Source of the DNA: Cyanobacteria bacterium FACHB-63
GTDB lineage: Bacteria > Cyanobacteriota > Cyanobacteriia > Leptolyngbyales > Leptolyngbyaceae
Reading direction: 5' to 3'
NCBI GenBank assembly: GCA_014695255.1
Contig: JACJNX010000126.1
Location: forward strand, 1 to 64,000
Length of the DNA stretch: 64,000 nucleotides
Shown: piece by piece, positions 4,486 through 23,447 of the stretch
Layout of the letters: each line of letters begins with the position of its first letter
Position numbering within the stretch: the stretch's first letter is position 1
Notes under the pieces: generated by a model
What the model was told of the DNA's origin: nothing
Databases searched by the model: none
Seen by the model: only the letters and a program-made list of their open reading frames with translations
Program-made: the position numbers and the translations under genes

Positions 4486-4710
4486 TTTAGATGGCTTGAT
4501 GGTTCTAGCAAACCCTGTACCGTAGTGCTACGGTACAGGAAACTTAAAGTCTAAATTCCCTCGTTTACCAGAATCAACCCAATACAGCAAGCGTCTAATT
4601 CGGTCTTACGGTACTATACGTGCAAGATAAGCTGATCGGTAATAGCTGTCGAGAATTTGCAGATGGTCAAACCCCGTTATTGCTTTTTGTTGTGCCTCGG
4701 TCTGGCTCAT
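4486..4710. repeat. 225-bp direct repeat, left copy (brackets the CRISPR block)
   Basis: Matches 23223-23447 in the same orientation without gaps, with about nine mismatches (roughly 96% identity). It contains the last 34 codons and stop of a SpoIID-type reading frame, the 120 bases after it, and the par-like palindrome. The right copy continues into an intact spoIID-like gene. The left copy continues into an unrelated coiled-coil gene. Recombination between the two would excise 18,737 bp and leave parA next to spoIID. Confidence 0.93.
4516..4537. promoter_or_regulatory. Candidate parS palindrome, copy 2
   Basis: TGTACCGTAG-TG-CTACGGTACA is a perfect 10-bp-arm palindrome, extended by CC/GG on the outside to 12-bp arms (4514-4539). 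It lies inside the left 225-bp direct repeat, 110 bases from the copy in front of parA. Confidence 0.6.
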
Positions 4711-13521: not shown

Positions 13522-16500
13522 TTAGTTCTCAACAACTGCATCTTCGTCTTCTGGCGCTTCGCCTTTCGCTTTCAGTTCGCGATTTTCTTTGTCTTGCTCT
13601 AAGCGATAGAGAAACTCGCAAGTATCTCGAAGCAGGTTCAGTTGTCGTCCTGCGAGTCGAGCGCGATCGCTGGCAAAAGCTTTTTGAAAAACATCAACAA
13701 CAAAATATTGAGCAAAATCTAGAATGGCTTGTCGTTCTTCTTCTCGATCGAAGATTTGATTAAAACCTTCGGCGCGTGAAGCTCGGACGCGATCCATTAG
13801 CTTGAAGACTTCTGATGCAACAACAGCGATTAAAGTTTCATCATCAAAGACAATTGAATCGGCTTTGAGAAGTACTTCTGCTGCTACATCGATCGGTTTT
13901 AGAACAGCATTTGCTTTGGGGTTATAGCGCCTGTTTGCCCGATAGAATTTTCGGTACAAATCAGTTAACTTTTGAGGGTGATTCATGGGCGATTTTTCTG
14001 GTGAAATTAGCTTTACTCGATCGGCTGTTGGATCAAATTCGACATAAGGATCGAAGCAAGGATAGAAATGGTGAGCATAGAGACGAATTTTCTCGATTCG
14101 GGCAGTGTCGGTTTTCTGTTTGCGTATCCATCGGTTGAGATAGTTAAAAACATAAAGGGGACTCGTTTCAAAATCTTTGGCAAGCTCTGTCAATTTTCCC
14201 CAGTCCGCATCATAGCCGCCCTTTCCTTGTTTGGCGTTAACTTCTAGGTGAATTGCATACGCTGCAGTCAGAACATTCAGGGGTGCAGGATAGTGAGTTC
14301 CATCCGCATCGTTCCAGCCTTCTAGAATCGAATCTAATCGAAAGCGATCTCGCTTGACTAAAACTCGAATGGCTTGCGGCGCACTATCTAAAAAGACGCT
14401 TTCTTCAAACTCTGCACCATCTGTAAAGGGTGGAATTGGTGATTCAGAAACAACGGTTTTGACATCCAAAATCATTGGAAATGCAAAGCCTAACCAGGCA
14501 GGCATTACCCAGGATTCTGTGTCATTGGGATCTTTTCCAGGAGGCAACGCCATGAAGTAGAAGGTTAAAGGTTGATCTTCGGGGTAAGACAGCTTGAAGA
14601 CCCGATTCTCCTTCTCTTCATTCATTAGAAACGCATCGATCGATTGATAGCGTTCTCGCCCAAAGTCAGCTTCTAAAGATTTAGAAATGAAATGATTTCG
14701 TAAGGTCGTATCGAAGCGCGTCTGGGCAATGCTGGTATATGCCTTCTGCAGAAAACGATTTGTTTCCGGTGTGAAGTAATAAGTTGGATAGAAATAGAGA
14801 TAGCGGTATTTCCCGTCCTCAAATCGTTTTCCGACAGCTTGGGTTTGATTCATCAAGATTTGTCGCAGCATAATTTCTAAGCTAGCAATGCTAGAAATAT
14901 TTCGCTTTGCGTTTCCTCCTCCTAACATTTGCTTATTGGTATAAACCTGTGGTGTAAATAAAACGGATGATTCCATTTGCTCAGTCACAGTGTAAGCGGA
15001 ATGCGAGATTGAGCAAATCAACTGCTTCCCTCGTCCAACTTTCTTTGCAGCATTGTAGTTTGCTAGCTCTTTGAGAAATTGATCGGCTTGCAAAGTCGGC
15101 GGAGTCGCTTGGGAGAGCATCACAACTGACTGAACCCACGATCGTAAATCTTCCCAACCATCTTGTAATTGATATTGACTGACAATCGGTTCAATCCGAT
15201 CAGCAATACAAGTAATGATCTGTTCACAGAGTTCGCGAACATTCTCAATTCCAGGATGACGCTCTAGATACTTTGCTGCAAGATAGTACCATTCGTAAGG
15301 AATTCCGCCCGTACTCCCTTTGATTTTTTGCTCTTTAAGCGTCTCATTAATTTTCTGAATCTCTCGGATCTGTGGCAAGTATTCTGTTAATCCTAATGAT
15401 TCAGCGACATCCTGCGTTAGATTCAACTCAGGCAGTTCAGGCAGTTTCTTATTTTGCTTGCGAGCAGTTGTAATTTTCTCAACCCGATCGCCCCAAATTT
15501 TACGACTGACCACATCCCCAAATTCTGCAATCTGATCAATGCGAATGTCATCTCCAAAGCTGAAATCATAATCGGCTGATAATGCGCCTTTTTGCTGAAA
15601 TTCTAGTAGTTTGTCGTTTCGACTTTTAGCAACTGAAGCTTTAGTCGATGACAGAATTCTCAACGTTGCATCTAGCGCGATTTGCATTAAAGTCCGGTCA
15701 TTGCAGAACAATGTGTAATAGTCTGCATATTTCATCCCTTTACCAGCTCGCCCAAATCCAGTTTGTCTAAGCCGTAATTGCTCGGTACAAAGGTCTTTGA
15801 TTTTATTGACGACTCGATCAGGCAGATCGCTGGGATCGATCGCTGGTGCATCTTTGATAGCGAGATAGATTACTCCAGGTGGTAAGTACAGCAATGGTTC
15901 ATAGATACATTCATCTGTATTGAGGCGAGTGTGTGCATCTACTAAAGCATTGTTTACGACGTTTGTTAAAGCACCTCGATTTTCTGAAATGCTGTGATAA
16001 GTAAATTTCAGCTTGCCATCGCTGAGCGTATGAATTAGCTCTTTGAGTCTAGAGCTTTCAGCATCATGTGGGTGTTTAACGATCGAAGCCAAAGAATCTG
16101 CGAGACAAGCTAGATTTGCAAGGCTTGAAAGCTTCTGACCGTTGAGAATCGGATCTAATCCATACTCAGAAAAGTTCCAATTTGTATCCCATCGTCGCTG
16201 CGCATTGTACGCAATACACAGTAAATCATCAATGTAATCTCGATAAGTTTCAGCATTGTTCGGATCAATGAATCGATCGAGTCCTAGCTGCTGAACTTTT
16301 TGCTCAATAATTTGCCGATGTTGCGCGATCGCTAATTTGCGACAGTCATCAGGCACATCTGGAAATTTCTCGAAATCGTGCAGAATGAAACCTGCGATCG
16401 CAAGTCTCCGTTCTCTCTCTTTCACGACTCGTCGAATGGTCGTATCCATTTTTTCTAAGCGCTGCTCAATCAGATTTGCTGGAAATAATCCATTCAACAA

Positions 16501-16881
16501 ATGCGTATTGAGCGATTGATCACCTGCATTATCTCGTCGAATCTTGGATTTCCCCTCTGCCTCGCGTTGTCGATCGAGTTGTTCAAAGAATTGACCGCCT
16601 TTTGCTGTAACTCCGATCGCAATGCGCAATAGATTCGGTAAAACGTATTCAGCAAAATCTTGCATCACAGCATCATTCGGATTTTGCGCCTGGATTGCTT
16701 CTCGAAGGAGTTTGAGAGTGAGTAATTCGCGTTGTTCGAGATCGATCGTGCGAGAACTGCTTTCACCCTCTAACTCAGAGTCATCCCTCCAATCATCCGA
16801 TTGATCTAAATCTGCTGTCGTCTCTTCTAGGTCAGGCAACAACTGCTCAGCTTCAACTTTATTCTGAATCTTCTTCGTCAT
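13522..16881 (-). CDS. cas10d: Cas10d (Csc3), large subunit with HD nuclease
   Basis: An 1119-residue large subunit of the type I-D effector. The N-terminal HD domain has H127 ('SLNTHLLNG') and the H168-D169 pair ('FILHDFEKF'), so the nuclease should be active. In type I-D, target cleavage comes from this subunit, because the Cas3 helicase has no HD domain. The rest fits the palm and helical domains of Cas10d. I see no GGDD cyclase motif, so no cyclic-oligoadenylate synthesis is expected. The first 60 residues are acidic. The start overlaps the 3' end of the HEPN toxin gene by 23 bases, so both are on one transcript. Confidence 0.95.
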   Translation of the reverse strand: MTKKIQNKVEAEQLLPDLEETTADLDQSDDWRDDSELEGESSSRTIDLEQRELLTLKLLREAIQAQNPNDAVMQDFAEYVLPNLLRIAIGVTAKGGQFFEQLDRQREAEGKSKIRRDNAGDQSLNTHLLNGLFPANLIEQRLEKMDTTIRRVVKERERRLAIAGFILHDFEKFPDVPDDCRKLAIAQHRQIIEQKVQQLGLDRFIDPNNAETYRDYIDDLLCIAYNAQRRWDTNWNFSEYGLDPILNGQKLSSLANLACLADSLASIVKHPHDAESSRLKELIHTLSDGKLKFTYHSISENRGALTNVVNNALVDAHTRLNTDECIYEPLLYLPPGVIYLAIKDAPAIDPSDLPDRVVNKIKDLCTEQLRLRQTGFGRAGKGMKYADYYTLFCNDRTLMQIALDATLRILSSTKASVAKSRNDKLLEFQQKGALSADYDFSFGDDIRIDQIAEFGDVVSRKIWGDRVEKITTARKQNKKLPELPELNLTQDVAESLGLTEYLPQIREIQKINETLKEQKIKGSTGGIPYEWYYLAAKYLERHPGIENVRELCEQIITCIADRIEPIVSQYQLQDGWEDLRSWVQSVVMLSQATPPTLQADQFLKELANYNAAKKVGRGKQLICSISHSAYTVTEQMESSVLFTPQVYTNKQMLGGGNAKRNISSIASLEIMLRQILMNQTQAVGKRFEDGKYRYLYFYPTYYFTPETNRFLQKAYTSIAQTRFDTTLRNHFISKSLEADFGRERYQSIDAFLMNEEKENRVFKLSYPEDQPLTFYFMALPPGKDPNDTESWVMPAWLGFAFPMILDVKTVVSESPIPPFTDGAEFEESVFLDSAPQAIRVLVKRDRFRLDSILEGWNDADGTHYPAPLNVLTAAYAIHLEVNAKQGKGGYDADWGKLTELAKDFETSPLYVFNYLNRWIRKQKTDTARIEKIRLYAHHFYPCFDPYVEFDPTADRVKLISPEKSPMNHPQKLTDLYRKFYRANRRYNPKANAVLKPIDVAAEVLLKADSIVFDDETLIAVVASEVFKLMDRVRASRAEGFNQIFDREEERQAILDFAQYFVVDVFQKAFASDRARLAGRQLNLLRDTCEFLYRLEQDKENRELKAKGEAPEDEDAVVEN

Positions 16882-17332
16882 CTGCTTGTTCTAGTAAATT
16901 TAAGTAGGTTTCAACTTCTGCAACATACTGTGGATAATCAGTCAAAGCATATTGCAGGGCTTCATATACCTTTTCAGCAATGATTTCGTCATATAAGTGA
17001 GCTAGTACATTCCGAAATCCACCTGATTTCTCCATACGTTTACCTAATGCTGGAGAAATCAATCCATACTGCCCAGCTAAGGTGAATGTTTCAGCATTTT
17101 TTGGAGCTTTTCCACCTTCTGAAATGATTCCAGCAACGCGCTTAAGGAAAGCTCGGTTGATATCAAGAGCAGATTGAATAATCTGTTCAAGTAGACGTTC
17201 AATAATGCTCTGTATGTCCTCATCTTGCAGATATTCGTCCAACGTTAGAGATTGAAAGCGATCGAGGCGTTGTAATCGCCTCCCGATCCCCTCTAGTTTT
17301 TCGCCAACCGTAACTGGAGTGAATTCCTTCAT
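16859..17332 (-). CDS. HepT-like HEPN toxin (DUF86)
   Basis: 157 residues, all-helical. The HEPN RNase motif R-x4-H-x-Y is intact: R107, H112, Y114 in 'FRNVLAHLYDEI'. Known HepT proteins cleave RNA and are silenced when the partner MNT enzyme adds AMP to the Tyr of this motif. The ATG at 17332 overlaps the MNT stop (ATGA type) and the 3' end overlaps cas10d, so all three genes are translationally coupled. The acidic C-terminus 'EQADDEEDSE' is unusual. Role inferred: toxin of a TA pair co-transcribed with the type I-D genes. Confidence 0.9.
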   Translation of the reverse strand: MKEFTPVTVGEKLEGIGRRLQRLDRFQSLTLDEYLQDEDIQSIIERLLEQIIQSALDINRAFLKRVAGIISEGGKAPKNAETFTLAGQYGLISPALGKRMEKSGGFRNVLAHLYDEIIAEKVYEALQYALTDYPQYVAEVETYLNLLEQADDEEDSE

Positions 17333-18003
17333 CGTCTAAGTTTCTCCAAGGTGGATCGAATCGATTCTCGTTGCTGTTGACGAAAAATTTTAAGTTGCTC
17401 TTTACTCATAAGTTTTTGCTGCTGAAAGCGCTCAAACTCTCCTGGTTCAAGTTCATAAAGAAGCTGTCCGTCTTTTGCAATATTATGTGCTAGCACATCT
17501 GAACACTCTTTCATCTCGATCGCATCAATCTGGTCATCACCTAGCTTATAAATCTGCTGCAAAACTCCCAAAATCCGAAGAAAGTCGAAGCCTCCTTTTT
17601 CGTATTGTTTGCGGAGTTCTTCATCGCATAAGAAAGCAAAATCCCAATCGCTGTTTGCATCATGATCTCCTCTAGCTCTGGAGCCAAAGAGAACTAATAA
17701 TTTGAGATAGGGAACTTGCTCAAGAATCTGCGGCACGAATTCGATCAGTTCCTCTAAAGTTTGTGGGGGCTGATTTGAAAGTTTAGCTTGTTCCTGACGC
17801 ACTAACTGACGAGCATAAAGCAGACAAGCTTGGATGTCTTCCTGTTCCAGCCACGGATAGGTTTCTACCATTTTTTCAAATGTCTCTCCTGCTGCAATTA
17901 ACTCTAAAGCGTATTCAACAGTGAGTCGCTCTCGAATAGCGGGTTTGCCATTGAGAATTTTGCGATCAACTGTGATTCGTTTCAGAAGATTTTGCTCATT
18001 CAT
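17329..18003 (-). CDS. DUF433-MNT fusion antitoxin (nucleotidyltransferase)
   Basis: 224 residues in two domains. Residues about 8-70 are a DUF433 domain ('ILNGKPAIRERLTVEYAL', 'EDIQACLLYARQL'), a helical DNA-binding fold seen in antitoxins. Residues about 95-190 are a minimal nucleotidyltransferase with GSRARG (107-112) and SDWD, catalytic D119 and D121. MNT antitoxins neutralise HepT by AMPylation. The fused DUF433 could add autoregulation. This is the first gene of the cas10d-cas2 operon. On the minus strand TATACT, a possible -10 box, lies about 25 bases before the ATG. Confidence 0.88.
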   Translation of the reverse strand: MNEQNLLKRITVDRKILNGKPAIRERLTVEYALELIAAGETFEKMVETYPWLEQEDIQACLLYARQLVRQEQAKLSNQPPQTLEELIEFVPQILEQVPYLKLLVLFGSRARGDHDANSDWDFAFLCDEELRKQYEKGGFDFLRILGVLQQIYKLGDDQIDAIEMKECSDVLAHNIAKDGQLLYELEPGEFERFQQQKLMSKEQLKIFRQQQRESIRSTLEKLRR

Positions 18004-18117
18004 TTTTTGGCTCTCTTCAGACGGAGTATAAAAAGAGGGAAGCAGTTAGAGTGATTTGCATTCTAGTTCTAGGATTTATCGTGACTTAACCAGCCTTGCT
18101 ACCGAAGTAGATTGAAG

Positions 18118-18222
18118 GGGGTTGAGATTACTTACGCCTGTACTTAATGCCGAAAGCTATTCGAGAACTTTCCTCTAGTCGTAGGCAGGCTCTCTTAGAA
18201 TTATAGAGAGCCTAAAGTTTTT
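18118..18222 (+). ncRNA. Candidate small RNA / decayed copy of the mini-array spacer
   Basis: Bases 18130-18161 match 18646-18677 (the pseudo-spacer of the mini-array) at 24 of 32 positions without gaps. The preceding GGGGTTGAGAT resembles the end of the first pseudo-repeat (9 of 11, with a one-base shift). The segment ends in a perfect 9-bp stem (18187-18213) followed by AAAG and five T, like an intrinsic terminator on the plus strand. It lies 115-220 bases upstream of the DUF433-MNT start and opposite in direction. It may be a small RNA, the target of one, or only a decayed duplicate. No transcript evidence exists here. Confidence 0.3.
18187..18222 (+). terminator. Candidate intrinsic terminator
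   Basis: AGGCTCTCT (18187-18195), a 9-base loop and AGAGAGCCT (18205-18213) form a perfect stem, followed by AAAG and TTTTT. Read on the plus strand it would end a transcript covering 18118-18186. Read on the minus strand it lies just after the stop of the 70-residue gene, but without a U-run after the stem. Confidence 0.5.
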
Positions 18223-18424
18223 AACGAACCGAAGTTTTCAACATCCGGTAACGATTCTTCAGCCCTACCCGATTCGTTTCAATCAAGTAGCCTTTGTCTC
18301 TGGCTAGTTTAATCGTTGCTCCAAAACGATGTCCGACCTTTACAGCCAATTCATCGCCCCAGTGCCAGGTTGTATCTGAGAGAAGTTCGTGCAACAACTC
18401 TAGCTTGGTCTTCTTGAAATTCAT
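18221..18424 (-). CDS. Small winged-helix-like protein (67 residues)
   Basis: Start ATG at 18424 is chosen because GGAG precedes it by 6 bases; the next upstream ATG (18436) lacks a site. The product has three predicted helices ('KLELLHELLSDTT', 'WGDELAVKVGHRFGATIKLARD') and a short strand pair ('YLIETNRVGLKNRYRML'), matching a minimal winged-helix DNA-binding fold. Similar tiny proteins with 'HWGDELAxxVxxRFGxTIxxAR' occur in cyanobacteria, but I know of no assigned function. It lies between cas3 and the TA-cas10d operon on the same strand, flanked by inverted repeats, so it could be a local regulator. Function is inference. Confidence 0.7.
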   Translation of the reverse strand: MNFKKTKLELLHELLSDTTWHWGDELAVKVGHRFGATIKLARDKGYLIETNRVGLKNRYRMLKTSVR

Positions 18425-18448
18425 AAAATTCTCCACAGTAAAGGATGT

Positions 18449-18488
18449 GACTAAAAAGAATAGTTCTTTTGAACTATTCTTTTTAGTC
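18449..18488. repeat. Perfect 18-bp inverted repeat
   Basis: GACTAAAAAGAATAGTTC (18449-18466) and its exact complement (18471-18488) are separated by TTTT. It lies 25 bases upstream of the 67-residue gene and 235 bases downstream of cas3. It could terminate the cas3 transcript, act as operator for the small gene, or be a relic of a miniature element. No T-run follows the stem. Confidence 0.85.
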
Positions 18489-18622
18489 GATCAAAATCTA
18501 GCGTGATCGATAGCCGATGGCAAGAGATTTCTTAAGACCAGACTTATTTAACCGTTAAATATGTCGAGACTTGATACAATTTCAAGGTGTCTGCGGAGCC
18601 TTGCGTTAAACACAGGGAATTG

Positions 18623-18722
18623 AATCCCGTTGTCGGGATTGAAATAAATACGTCTGATCTTAATGGCGTAAGCTGTTTCATCTCCGTCAGATTCTTCTAA
18701 ATCCCGGCAACGGGACTGAAAC
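18623..18722 (+). CRISPR. Degenerate two-repeat mini-array (crRNA-like locus)
   Basis: Two partial repeats flank one spacer. The second core (18700-18722) is identical to the last 23 bases of array 2's repeat (AATCCCGG...GGACTGAAAC). The first core (18623-18645) differs at 6 of 23 positions but keeps a perfect 7-bp stem (AATCCCG-TTGT-CGGGATT) and a GATTGAAAT handle. The spacing of 77 bases per unit equals that of the real arrays. The 5' halves of both repeats have diverged and no leader is present. It reads on the plus strand, opposite to cas3, whose stop begins two bases beyond. It resembles CreA/CreR crRNA-like genes. Confidence 0.7.
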
Positions 18723-18723
18723 C

Positions 18724-20898
18724 TTAAAATATCCACGGGTCGTCTCCTTTGCTTTTGAGTTGATAGGCGAGGGTGTCGAGTAGTAATGCACTTTGTCCGA
18801 ACGCGATCGCATAAGGCGCGATCGCATCATGGAAGCTGCGCGAATCACTAATCGGATAAATCTGAAAGTGCATCGGCAGCTTTAGCCTAAATCGCACATC
18901 AGCCACAGGACGCTTTACCACATAAGCAACCAAGCCCTCTATTCTCAGCCGTTTATTGATCTCGCCTGCCCAAGGGTTATCCGGTTGCCAGACTTCGATT
19001 CCTTTGAGAACTTGGATTTGCCAAGCCTTTGTGCTGAGATCTCCTGAGTAGGTAAATTTCCAGTTCGATCGCTCTTCTCGATAGCGATGAAGTTTCACAA
19101 AGGCTAAACAGTGAGAAAATCGACCTTTCGGAATCGAGTGCTGAGTGCGTTGAACTGTCTCATTGAGCGATCGCAGAAATGCTGCTTCACTCATCATCTC
19201 AATTTCTAGATTGCTGAGAATTCCGGGGAGATCGTACGCTTTAAAGCGATCGCTTTCATTCTCTTCGGTCAAATCATAGATCCCGCACTGTAGTGGACTA
19301 GAGCCCCTGAAACTACAAGCATCCTCATAAATTGGATTTCCTTCTTTCTTCCCCGAAAGCTTCTGCCAATCTTGCGCCCAACCTCTGACAAATCCAGCAA
19401 GTTCTCTAAAGGAGCGATCAAAAACACTTTCACAAGCCGCCTGAAAGATTTCTAAGCTACTTGCATACTGTTCTCGAATCGTTTTATGCCCTAATTTGCG
19501 ACCCAGATGAAGTGACTGAAAGGCTCCCCATCGTTTGTAGTAACCCCGAAAATCATTGATAGTCCGATACTCATCTAAAACCGTCGAATTGAGAAAAGGA
19601 CGATCGTACTGTTCACCTTGAATCAATGGAGGCGACCCTCTCTCAAACAGTCGCTCTGTAAAAAACTTCGGAACAAGTGCGTAAGCTGTAAAGTTCTTAA
19701 ACTGAATCGTTCGATTGTTCAGTTGATAGCCATTGTGTCGCCCTAATCGTCCAAGCCGCTGGATAAAACTACCTGCATCAGACGATTCAAAAATGAGAAA
19801 GTTGATCTTAAAGTCAACTCCGACATCAATTGTACTGGTTCCCAAAATAAGATCGGCAGACAAAGACTGTTCTCGCTCTGTTGTTCCAGATAGTCCCGTA
19901 TTCTCATTTACTGTTAAACCATAGGGCAAAAGTTGCTCTTGAAAGAAAGGTTTCAGTCGTTTGACTGCTGCGATCGAATTGAGAATAATTGCCCCTTTAC
20001 TTCCAGGATGTTGCTGGAACTGTTCTAAAATCAATGCGGCATTATCTCTCAACCATATTTCTGAGGCTTTTGCAGCAGACTCCAACGGTACAAAGTTGAG
20101 TCTAATCGGTCGTGCAACTTGTCGCCAATTTTCCGATTTAAGCTGCTCTTGTTGCTCGACTGAAACAGGGAATTGATACTTATTTTCTGCGATCGGGTTA
20201 ATGACTTTGCAGCGAAACCCTGCTTTTCTCAAGCGCTGAATTAACTGTTCATCTGGTGTTGCAGATAGGAACAAAAACTTTCTATGCCGACTGGTCGATT
20301 GGATCAATAGCATTGTATTGATCACGCTGGAAATCTGAGGCGCAGCAAACACATGAAACTCATCAAAAATGAATAGCTCGAAGACTTTATCAATCCGTCC
20401 CCACAGTTTATCGGGACTATCATCGGGCATGAGATAAGCACCCCGATGTAAGTAATGAAAGAGATCCGGGTTGGTGAGTAAAACTTCTGTTTGCTCAGTT
20501 CGAGTTGCGATCGCAGCACTTTTCCGCAAGTCTTCATTTTCTGCATAGTTCTCTAATGTTGCTCCGCTCAACCTCACAACTCGCGGTTCATTTTCTGGCT
20601 GGAACTGTTGAATGTAATTTTTAATTTGAGTTTCTTGATCTCTTGCAAGCTCGTTAGTGGGATATAACCCGATCGCGCAACAATCCCCTTGAAGAACTCT
20701 CAAATAAGCTGCCAAACTCTTTCCATCTCCTGTCATTGCTGTATTGAAAACGACATCAATCGCTGGATCTTGTAGTGCTTTTAGAGTCTCTGCCTGATGC
20801 CAAGACAGTACCCATCGATCCGGAAGCTGCACTTCCTCTGAAGCTTCTAACGTAGGACAAGAATAAACTGACTGGAGTGTAACAGAGTAGATACTCAT
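18724..20898 (-). CDS. cas3: Cas3 helicase of type I-D (no HD domain)
   Basis: A 724-residue superfamily 2 helicase. Walker A-like 'TAMTGDGKS' is at about residues 53-61, the DExH box is 'FIFDEFHVF', motif III is 'FLSATPD' and motif VI is 'QRLGRLGRHN'. It lacks the N-terminal HD nuclease of other Cas3 proteins, as is normal for type I-D, where Cas10d supplies nuclease activity. It would unwind DNA recruited by the I-D Cascade. Transcribed apart from cas10d and divergently from the WYL regulator, with shared repeats in the 83-base promoter gap. Its 3' end meets the mini-array. Confidence 0.94.
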   Translation of the reverse strand: MSIYSVTLQSVYSCPTLEASEEVQLPDRWVLSWHQAETLKALQDPAIDVVFNTAMTGDGKSLAAYLRVLQGDCCAIGLYPTNELARDQETQIKNYIQQFQPENEPRVVRLSGATLENYAENEDLRKSAAIATRTEQTEVLLTNPDLFHYLHRGAYLMPDDSPDKLWGRIDKVFELFIFDEFHVFAAPQISSVINTMLLIQSTSRHRKFLFLSATPDEQLIQRLRKAGFRCKVINPIAENKYQFPVSVEQQEQLKSENWRQVARPIRLNFVPLESAAKASEIWLRDNAALILEQFQQHPGSKGAIILNSIAAVKRLKPFFQEQLLPYGLTVNENTGLSGTTEREQSLSADLILGTSTIDVGVDFKINFLIFESSDAGSFIQRLGRLGRHNGYQLNNRTIQFKNFTAYALVPKFFTERLFERGSPPLIQGEQYDRPFLNSTVLDEYRTINDFRGYYKRWGAFQSLHLGRKLGHKTIREQYASSLEIFQAACESVFDRSFRELAGFVRGWAQDWQKLSGKKEGNPIYEDACSFRGSSPLQCGIYDLTEENESDRFKAYDLPGILSNLEIEMMSEAAFLRSLNETVQRTQHSIPKGRFSHCLAFVKLHRYREERSNWKFTYSGDLSTKAWQIQVLKGIEVWQPDNPWAGEINKRLRIEGLVAYVVKRPVADVRFRLKLPMHFQIYPISDSRSFHDAIAPYAIAFGQSALLLDTLAYQLKSKGDDPWIF

Positions 20899-23222: not shown

Positions 23223-23447
23223 TTTAGATGGCTTGATGGTTCTAGCAAAACCTGTACTGTAGCACTACGGTACAGGAAACTTAAAGTCCAAATTCCCTCA
23301 TTTACCAGAATCAACCCAATACAGCAAGCGTCTAATTCGGTCTTACGGCACTATACGTGCAAGATAAGCTGATCGGTAATAGCTGTCGAGAATTTGCAGA
23401 TGGTCAAACCCCGTTATTGCTTTTTGCTGTGCCCCGGTCTGGCTCAT
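23223..23447. repeat. 225-bp direct repeat, right copy
   Basis: Partner of 4486-4710, same orientation, offset exactly 18,737 bases, about nine mismatches and no gap. It spans the 3' end of the SpoIID-like gene (last 34 codons) and the sequence beyond, including a par-like palindrome. Because the tail belongs naturally to SpoIID, this is likely the original copy. Confidence 0.93.
23253..23274. promoter_or_regulatory. Candidate parS palindrome, copy 3
   Basis: TGTACTGTAG-CA-CTACGGTACA, 10-bp arms with one mismatch, within the right 225-bp direct repeat. It is the distant third copy of the palindrome found in front of parA. Confidence 0.55.

Follow-up and report, generated by a model that had tools for sequence, protein, structure and literature searches.

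Guide RNAs and the Subtype I-D Cascade

The described systems closest to the element analyzed here are CreR, CreTA, and CrePA. CreR guides have been reported in subtypes I-B, I-E, and V-A (PMC13131331), and their lack of coupling to a toxin is general but not absolute according to a review (PMC12737573). The creA guide pairs through positions 1-5 and 7-11, without participation of positions 6 and 12, with a PAM-flanked target (PMC8501985). In creA genes, the first degenerate repeat (psiR1) is more degenerate than the second (psiR2) (PMC9458426). CrePA systems couple protein toxins to repression by Cascade (PMC12737573). For subtype I-D, the PAM is GTN (PMC9123187; PMC10212523). The I-D Cascade recognizes GTN on DNA and needs it for binding to dsDNA, but ssRNA is bound whatever sequence flanks it, and the apparent affinity for matching ssRNA is about 11 nM (PMC9123187).

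In the type I-D locus considered here, a small degenerate array located behind cas3 very probably encodes a guide of the CreR/CreA type, as judged by comparison with related loci. No earlier report of a CreR-type guide in subtype I-D was found in the literature covered, which excludes the 2023 survey by Shmakov et al.; that survey reportedly predicted that many type I loci contain crRNA-like elements, and I-D members may be listed there.

A Degenerate Mini-Array behind cas3

A cyanobacterial type I-D locus is present in full on the minus strand of the window, meaning the whole 64-kb stretch of DNA that was analyzed. The gene order on that strand is cas3', a small ORF, DUF433-MNT, HEPN, cas10d, cas7d, cas5d, cas6, cas4, cas1, and cas2, and the locus also includes a WYL regulator and two CRISPR arrays. 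The cas3' gene (Cas3d; 18724-20898, minus strand; PADLOC Cas3d, 2.6e-194) is convergent with the mini-array. The stretch from the cas3' end to the MNT gene contains the mini-array as well as a sequence that matches its spacer at 24 of 32 positions. The small ORF (18221-18427, minus strand) encodes a 68-amino-acid winged-helix (wHTH) protein and is the first gene of a string that continues on the same strand with a DUF433 and MNT nucleotidyltransferase gene of the antitoxin type (17329-18003; Pfam DUF433, Polbeta, NTP_transf_2), a gene for a HEPN (HepT-like) toxin-type RNase (16859-17332; Pfam HepT-like, 7.9e-20), and cas10d (13522-16881; PADLOC Cas10_Id). A 225-nt direct repeat with 96% identity is present at 4486-4710 and 23223-23447, with one copy overlapping the trailer end of array 2 and the other some 500 bases before array 1.

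The mini-array is read on the plus strand. Psi-repeat 1 (psiR1; 18609-18645, core 18623-18645) is a degenerate CRISPR repeat that would give the 5' handle ATTGAAAT. It is followed by the psi-spacer, or putative guide (psiS; 18646-18685), and by psi-repeat 2 (psiR2; 18686-18722, core 18700-18722), whose end lies just before the cas3 stop codon. The coordinates of both cores and of the single spacer between them had been given correctly in the initial annotation, as had the identity of the psiR2 core to the repeat end of array 2 (23/23); the psiR1 core matches the array repeat at 17/23. The annotation had also equated the 77-nt spacing of the pseudo-repeats with that of the real arrays. This spacing is within the range of their units (69-81 nt) but is not typical, because most units are 72 nt long.

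Predicted folds retain the repeat hairpin in both pseudo-repeats (-11.3 kcal/mol for psiR1), and in the predicted fold of 18638-18685 a GTTTCAT segment of psiS is able to base-pair with the handle. The stretch GTTTCATCTCCGTC within these same positions is preserved in several relatives. A consensus scan revealed no plus-strand promoter for the mini-array, a scan for intrinsic terminators was also negative, and searches of Rfam families at the site yielded weak CRISPR-repeat matches and chance microRNA matches only. Two exact-pattern scans of viral contigs found no phage copies that mimic the guide. An ordinary CRISPR array has uniform repeats and several acquired spacers, whereas this one has a single spacer and a psiR1 core with 17/23 identity to the array repeat. 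Within the explanation as a whole, which is highly probable, 18609-18722 would be a CRISPR array reduced to a degenerate minimum, and its single guide would serve regulation rather than immune memory.

Another I-D system, of the Synechocystis type, is present in the same genome (G000 contig C27:56700-74700; L056), with two long arrays and a cas3 that is 35% identical. Its array repeats share 26 nt with psiR2 (18697-18722), and most repeats of the local arrays share 23 nt. No mini-array was seen behind the cas3 of this second system, nor in the Synechocystis-type I-D clade, where the gap between cas3 and cas10d is just 13 nt. In three other loci (L101, L117, and L130), different short tandem repeats are found downstream of cas3 in the place of the mini-array.

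A Probable Promoter Target with PAM and Seed

A scan of both strands with psiS revealed a target, A1, on the minus strand, with a GTT PAM at 18552-18550 and a protospacer at 18549-18516; of all places scanned, it matches the seed best. Over guide positions 1-17, A1 (AAATAAGTCTGGTCTTA) and the guide (AAATACGTCTGATCTTA) are mismatched only at positions 6 and 12, and the match stops at about position 17, leaving the complementarity partial. A1 is the sole place in the 7.2-Mb genome that combines a PAM with all 15 of the 15 non-flipped positions of 1-17. One base away on the plus strand is a weaker, head-to-head target, A2, which has its own GTT PAM (18554-18556) and a protospacer (18557-18590) that points to the mini-array.

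The promoter predicted for the wHTH-MNT-HEPN-cas10d operon (18495-18523, minus strand; TTGCCA-17-TAGATT) has its -35 box inside the A1 protospacer and is directed to the small ORF, MNT, HEPN, and cas10d. Relatives that share the wHTH gene have an aligned TTGACA/TTGCCA-17-TAGNNT pattern. The initial annotation had overlooked the GTT target (18516-18552, minus strand), A2 (18554-18590, plus strand), and the wHTH ORF, and the site that it had chosen as the target lies 350 bp from this operon promoter, where the DNA target with both PAM and seed is found.

Guide and Promoter across Type I-D Loci

Two groups of I-D loci were compared, 17 retrieved from relatives as cas3 loci and 80 named ones taken from species genomes. 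Apart from one metagenome bin labelled Gammaproteobacteria, every source is cyanobacterial. Selection was based on similarity of cas3, and the loci are related by descent. In relatives, the mini-array occupies the same place behind cas3, and psiR2 usually stops 4-8 nt short of the cas3 end. Some loci have no recognizable mini-array or no GTN target. The unit is present in Picosynechococcus sp. PCC 7117 (L139), a close cas3 is found in Anabaena sp. 90, and the nearest carriers are Nostoc or Myxacorys strains. When the best match to psiS positions 1-17 is picked blind to the PAM, it carries GTN in 51 of 62 loci. A GTN site with at least six of seven seed identities exists in 57 of the 62, compared with 4.7% for shuffled psiS, and 19 of these 57 loci have GTN sites on both strands. 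Identity between guide and site A over the 62 loci is 94-100% at positions 1-5, 36% at position 6, 89-98% at 7-9, 33% at 12, 77-84% at 13-15, and about background beyond. This per-position profile is the signature of a putative Cascade guide.

After loci with weaker repeats had been added and two without repeats removed, the set comprised 69 mini-arrays, which carry 28 different seeds. An own GTN-flanked target accompanies 65 of the 69 (54 perfect at seven seed positions), whereas matches of psiS to promoters of other seed families, as swapped pairs, occur in 6.4%. On a cas3 tree (FastTree), the seed 5-mer changes 43 times, a number that is approximate given the many open forks. These changes often fall between very close relatives and are accompanied by changes in the target and in the kind of gene that comes first. 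The whole cassette has evidently been exchanged while the guide nearly always fits its own promoter, and this fit through cassette exchange is the strongest evidence in the analysis for the proposed function. Together, A1, the own targets, and the seed changes strongly support the suggestion of CreA/CreR-type regulation made in the initial annotation.

The genes behind the targeted promoter differ among loci. A conserved 68-amino-acid wHTH protein heads the operon in about 27 I-D loci. The first-gene protein has a predicted winged-helix fold (AlphaFold2 pLDDT 87) and its PDB neighbors are ArsR-type wHTH proteins with weak E-values; a Pfam match (HTH_39) exists for a single member of the family, and most members have none. 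In other loci, the first gene instead encodes a small protein of unassigned or coiled-coil type. Where the guide is of the TTCCG type (L076, L078, L092, L098, L109, L121, L129, and others), small proteins of the form QLELFDL..YT...YEQLELNLF take the place of the wHTH gene, and a related-looking QLELPLYRKP protein is present in L068, L088, and L106. We know of no family for either type. Mini-array, promoter, and first gene are swapped as a cassette despite near-identical cas3 in the pairs L078/L108, L114/L123, and L138/L099.

Further operon genes also vary (MNT/HEPN, DUF433, DUF5615, and DUF1016), and cas10d usually comes after them. Because the cargo varies while cas10d usually follows, the common denominator is, as far as gene content indicates, the effector operon, and the toxin-antitoxin cargo would be a variable passenger or safety device.

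A Second Match on the Presumed Operon Transcript

The guide has another, longer counterpart, site B (18130-18161, plus strand), which lacks a PAM, resembles the guide over nearly its full length, and is oriented such that the operon mRNA, read from the minus strand, would be complementary to the guide. The 24 of 32 ungapped identities between psiS (18646-18677) and this site are exactly as initially reported, and the runner-up in the 64-kb window reaches 19 of 32. Chance is excluded as an explanation by trials with shuffled psiS, which attained 24 in 1 of 300 window-wide trials and a maximum of 21 in 1000 trials on 18004-18622. The site is located 127-158 nt upstream of the DUF433-MNT start, in agreement with the earlier estimate of about 130-160 bases, and is indeed preceded by ATT rather than GTN. 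What does not hold is its designation as a DNA target: it has no GTN PAM and is mismatched at guide positions 2, 3, and 8. Overall, the initial interpretation is partly supported.

Related loci were searched over 1.6 kb each with guide positions 4-29 and a threshold of at least 17 of 22 non-flipped identities. Site B was found at this threshold in 40 loci, compared with a span of 12-17 for shuffled guides, and in all 40 it is on the plus strand, the orientation that makes the operon mRNA complementary to the guide. GTN is present in 0 of 39 non-redundant loci, and mismatches prevail at guide positions 1-3 and 8. Identity is 82-100% at positions 9-11, 13-17, 19-20, 22-23, and 25-29, and 28, 33, 15, and 7% at positions 12, 18, 24, and 30, respectively; re-selection on all positions 4-32 returned the same 40 sites. 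Mismatches amount to 76% at multiples of six versus 2.5-22.5% at other phases. Within each of both large families, psiS and B covary more strongly than in all 2000 within-family shuffles, and this excess is confined to the non-flipped positions. The pair formed by psiS and its match is thus conserved in related I-D loci, a check that had been proposed with the initial annotation.

The distance from site B to the start of the following gene is mostly 75-170 nt, both in loci with an intervening wHTH gene and in loci without one. The site was missing in the 15 loci whose first gene belongs to the coiled-coil family. Transitions at B number 48 versus 20 in the guide-compatible direction, a wobble bias that is suggestive among loci that are phylogenetically not independent. 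The consensus RNA structure around B gave no clear strand preference. A plasmid of Stanieria cyanosphaera (L140) carries a sequence that resembles B (GGGAGTTGAGAT TTCCTACGTCAGAACTTAATGCCG) but no clear mini-array, and the operon there has DUF433 only.

A dsDNA site needs both a PAM and a seed, and site B has neither, whereas ssRNA is bound by the I-D Cascade without a PAM and independently of the flanks. This points to B as a second, different target, most likely at the RNA level in the leader of the transcript. The guide might pair as naked antisense RNA, although gaps with a 6-nt period favor pairing within Cascade.

Alternative Explanations

The repeats are degenerate, as those of a dying array would be, and the sequence GGGGGTTGAGATT ahead of site B is faintly like a repeat end; the mini-array and 18130-18161 could thus represent a decayed duplication with chance residual similarity, a caveat voiced in the initial annotation. 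This is extremely improbable in light of the six-base period of the mismatches, the covariation of psiS with B, the joint change of psiS and A across 28 seeds, and the retention of the mini-array, site A, and site B across many genera. It is also improbable, albeit less extremely so, that Cascade binds B as DNA in spite of the missing PAM, for instance in cooperation with A or within a transcription bubble. In the c4-gene family, B is indeed located just 6-23 nt past the A1 protospacer. However, dsDNA binding needs GTN (PMC9123187), which B lacks, and B is also mismatched with the guide at positions 1-3 and 8. In addition, A sites are found on both strands and B sites on a single one.

If B acts as RNA, the operon mRNA might function as a sponge that pulls guide-loaded Cascade off the promoter, creating positive feedback once transcribed. 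The complementarity of B is far above that of A, so B RNA should win such a competition, and the I-D Cascade has an affinity of about 11 nM for ssRNA (PMC9123187). A sponge could be placed anywhere, whereas the steady distance of B from the next gene start suggests a local effect, and we consider the sponge unlikely. Addiction of the CreTA/CrePA type is a tangible though doubtful possibility. The main client would then be a toxin, either HEPN or the small first protein, that is lethal on loss or inhibition of Cascade, with cas10d merely downstream. Genes for HEPN, MNT, DUF433, DUF5615, and DUF1016 proteins within these operons fit this idea, as does the coupling of a protein toxin to Cascade repression in CrePA (PMC12737573). 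Yet the operon also encodes an MNT antitoxin for the HEPN toxin, the first genes encode the wHTH protein or small proteins of unassigned type, and four loci (L099, L105, L107, and L118) have a guide and a target with no HEPN/MNT found before cas10d.

A Model for Regulation by One Guide

According to the preferred explanation, in which the mini-array provides a CreR/CreA-type guide, a plus-strand transcript would be cut by Cas6 to yield a crRNA-like RNA with the handle ATTGAAAT. The I-D Cascade loaded with this RNA would bind A1 by means of the GTT PAM and pairing at positions 1-5, 7-11, and 13-17, where the match is observed. Such a short match should keep Cascade on the DNA without a full R-loop or cleavage, and by covering the -35 box the complex would repress the wHTH-MNT-HEPN-cas10d operon. 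Where a head-to-head second site is present, transcription of the mini-array itself would also be repressed. Titration of Cascade by crRNAs, or its blockage by an anti-CRISPR, would cause derepression and a rise of cas10d and the toxin-antitoxin genes.

In the operon transcript, site B would precede the next gene by about 115 nt, with transcription from the A1 promoter assumed from gene order. Its orientation, missing PAM, and broken seed suggest that guide-loaded Cascade might bind this leader RNA and add a second, post-transcriptional layer of repression; given the rest of the model, the case for this layer is about evenly balanced. Equally poised is the broader proposal that one guide has two coevolved targets, a promoter site on DNA with PAM and seed and a PAM-less, seed-broken, near-full-length site on mRNA, within a cassette whose guide, target, and first gene are exchanged together between loci.

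If the two-target reading is true, the type I-D Cascade regulates its own operon at both the DNA and the RNA level. Guide-RNA self-regulation would be extended to subtype I-D, where the WYL protein Sll7009 is the known repressor, and the loci would offer dozens of natural experiments in guide-target coevolution. Toxin-antitoxin genes and cas10d would be placed under one Cascade-sensing switch that an anti-CRISPR could trip. Site B may also be a natural RNA target of the I-D Cascade, whose ssRNA binding is known from in vitro work alone; the choice between RNA and DNA targets is considered an open question by the authors of its structure (PMC9123187).

Comparison with Known Systems

The candidate element shares its repeat core, hairpin, and handle with type I-D CRISPR arrays, but differs from them in having one spacer, degenerate repeats, a vertically kept place behind cas3, and a target in its own locus. 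Its likeness to CreTA extends to two degenerate repeats of which psiR1 is the more diverged (17/23 vs. 23/23) and to a PAM-flanked target with pairing at positions 1-5 and 7-11 while 6 and 12 are free. In CreTA, the targeted promoter drives the creT RNA toxin; here, the first gene encodes a protein with a predicted wHTH fold, and no counterpart of creT was identified. The mini-array also differs from CreTA in being divergent from the targeted operon, which includes cas10d. As in CrePA, a protein toxin gene (HEPN) stands under the promoter that the guide would target; unlike in CrePA, HEPN lies beside a protein antitoxin and shares its operon with cas10d.

Site B has the sequence features of an RNA target, namely complementarity to the transcript, gaps with a 6-nt period, and independence from a PAM, and to our knowledge it has no parallel in these systems. 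The closest likeness overall is to CreR, which is also a crRNA-like guide from a degenerate mini-array in a cas locus and matches, by its seed only and beside a PAM, a promoter that precedes cas genes. Here, a crRNA-like unit with degenerate repeats is found inside the cas locus, and its seed matches the promoter of the locus's own cas operon beside the subtype PAM (A1, GTT). Toxin coupling sets the locus apart, in that HEPN/MNT genes are in the same gene string, although none were found there in several relatives. The proposed guide further departs from CreR in its subtype, in the toxin-antitoxin and wHTH genes of the controlled string, in its head-to-head target pairs, and in having on the transcript another coevolved site, B, that lacks a PAM.
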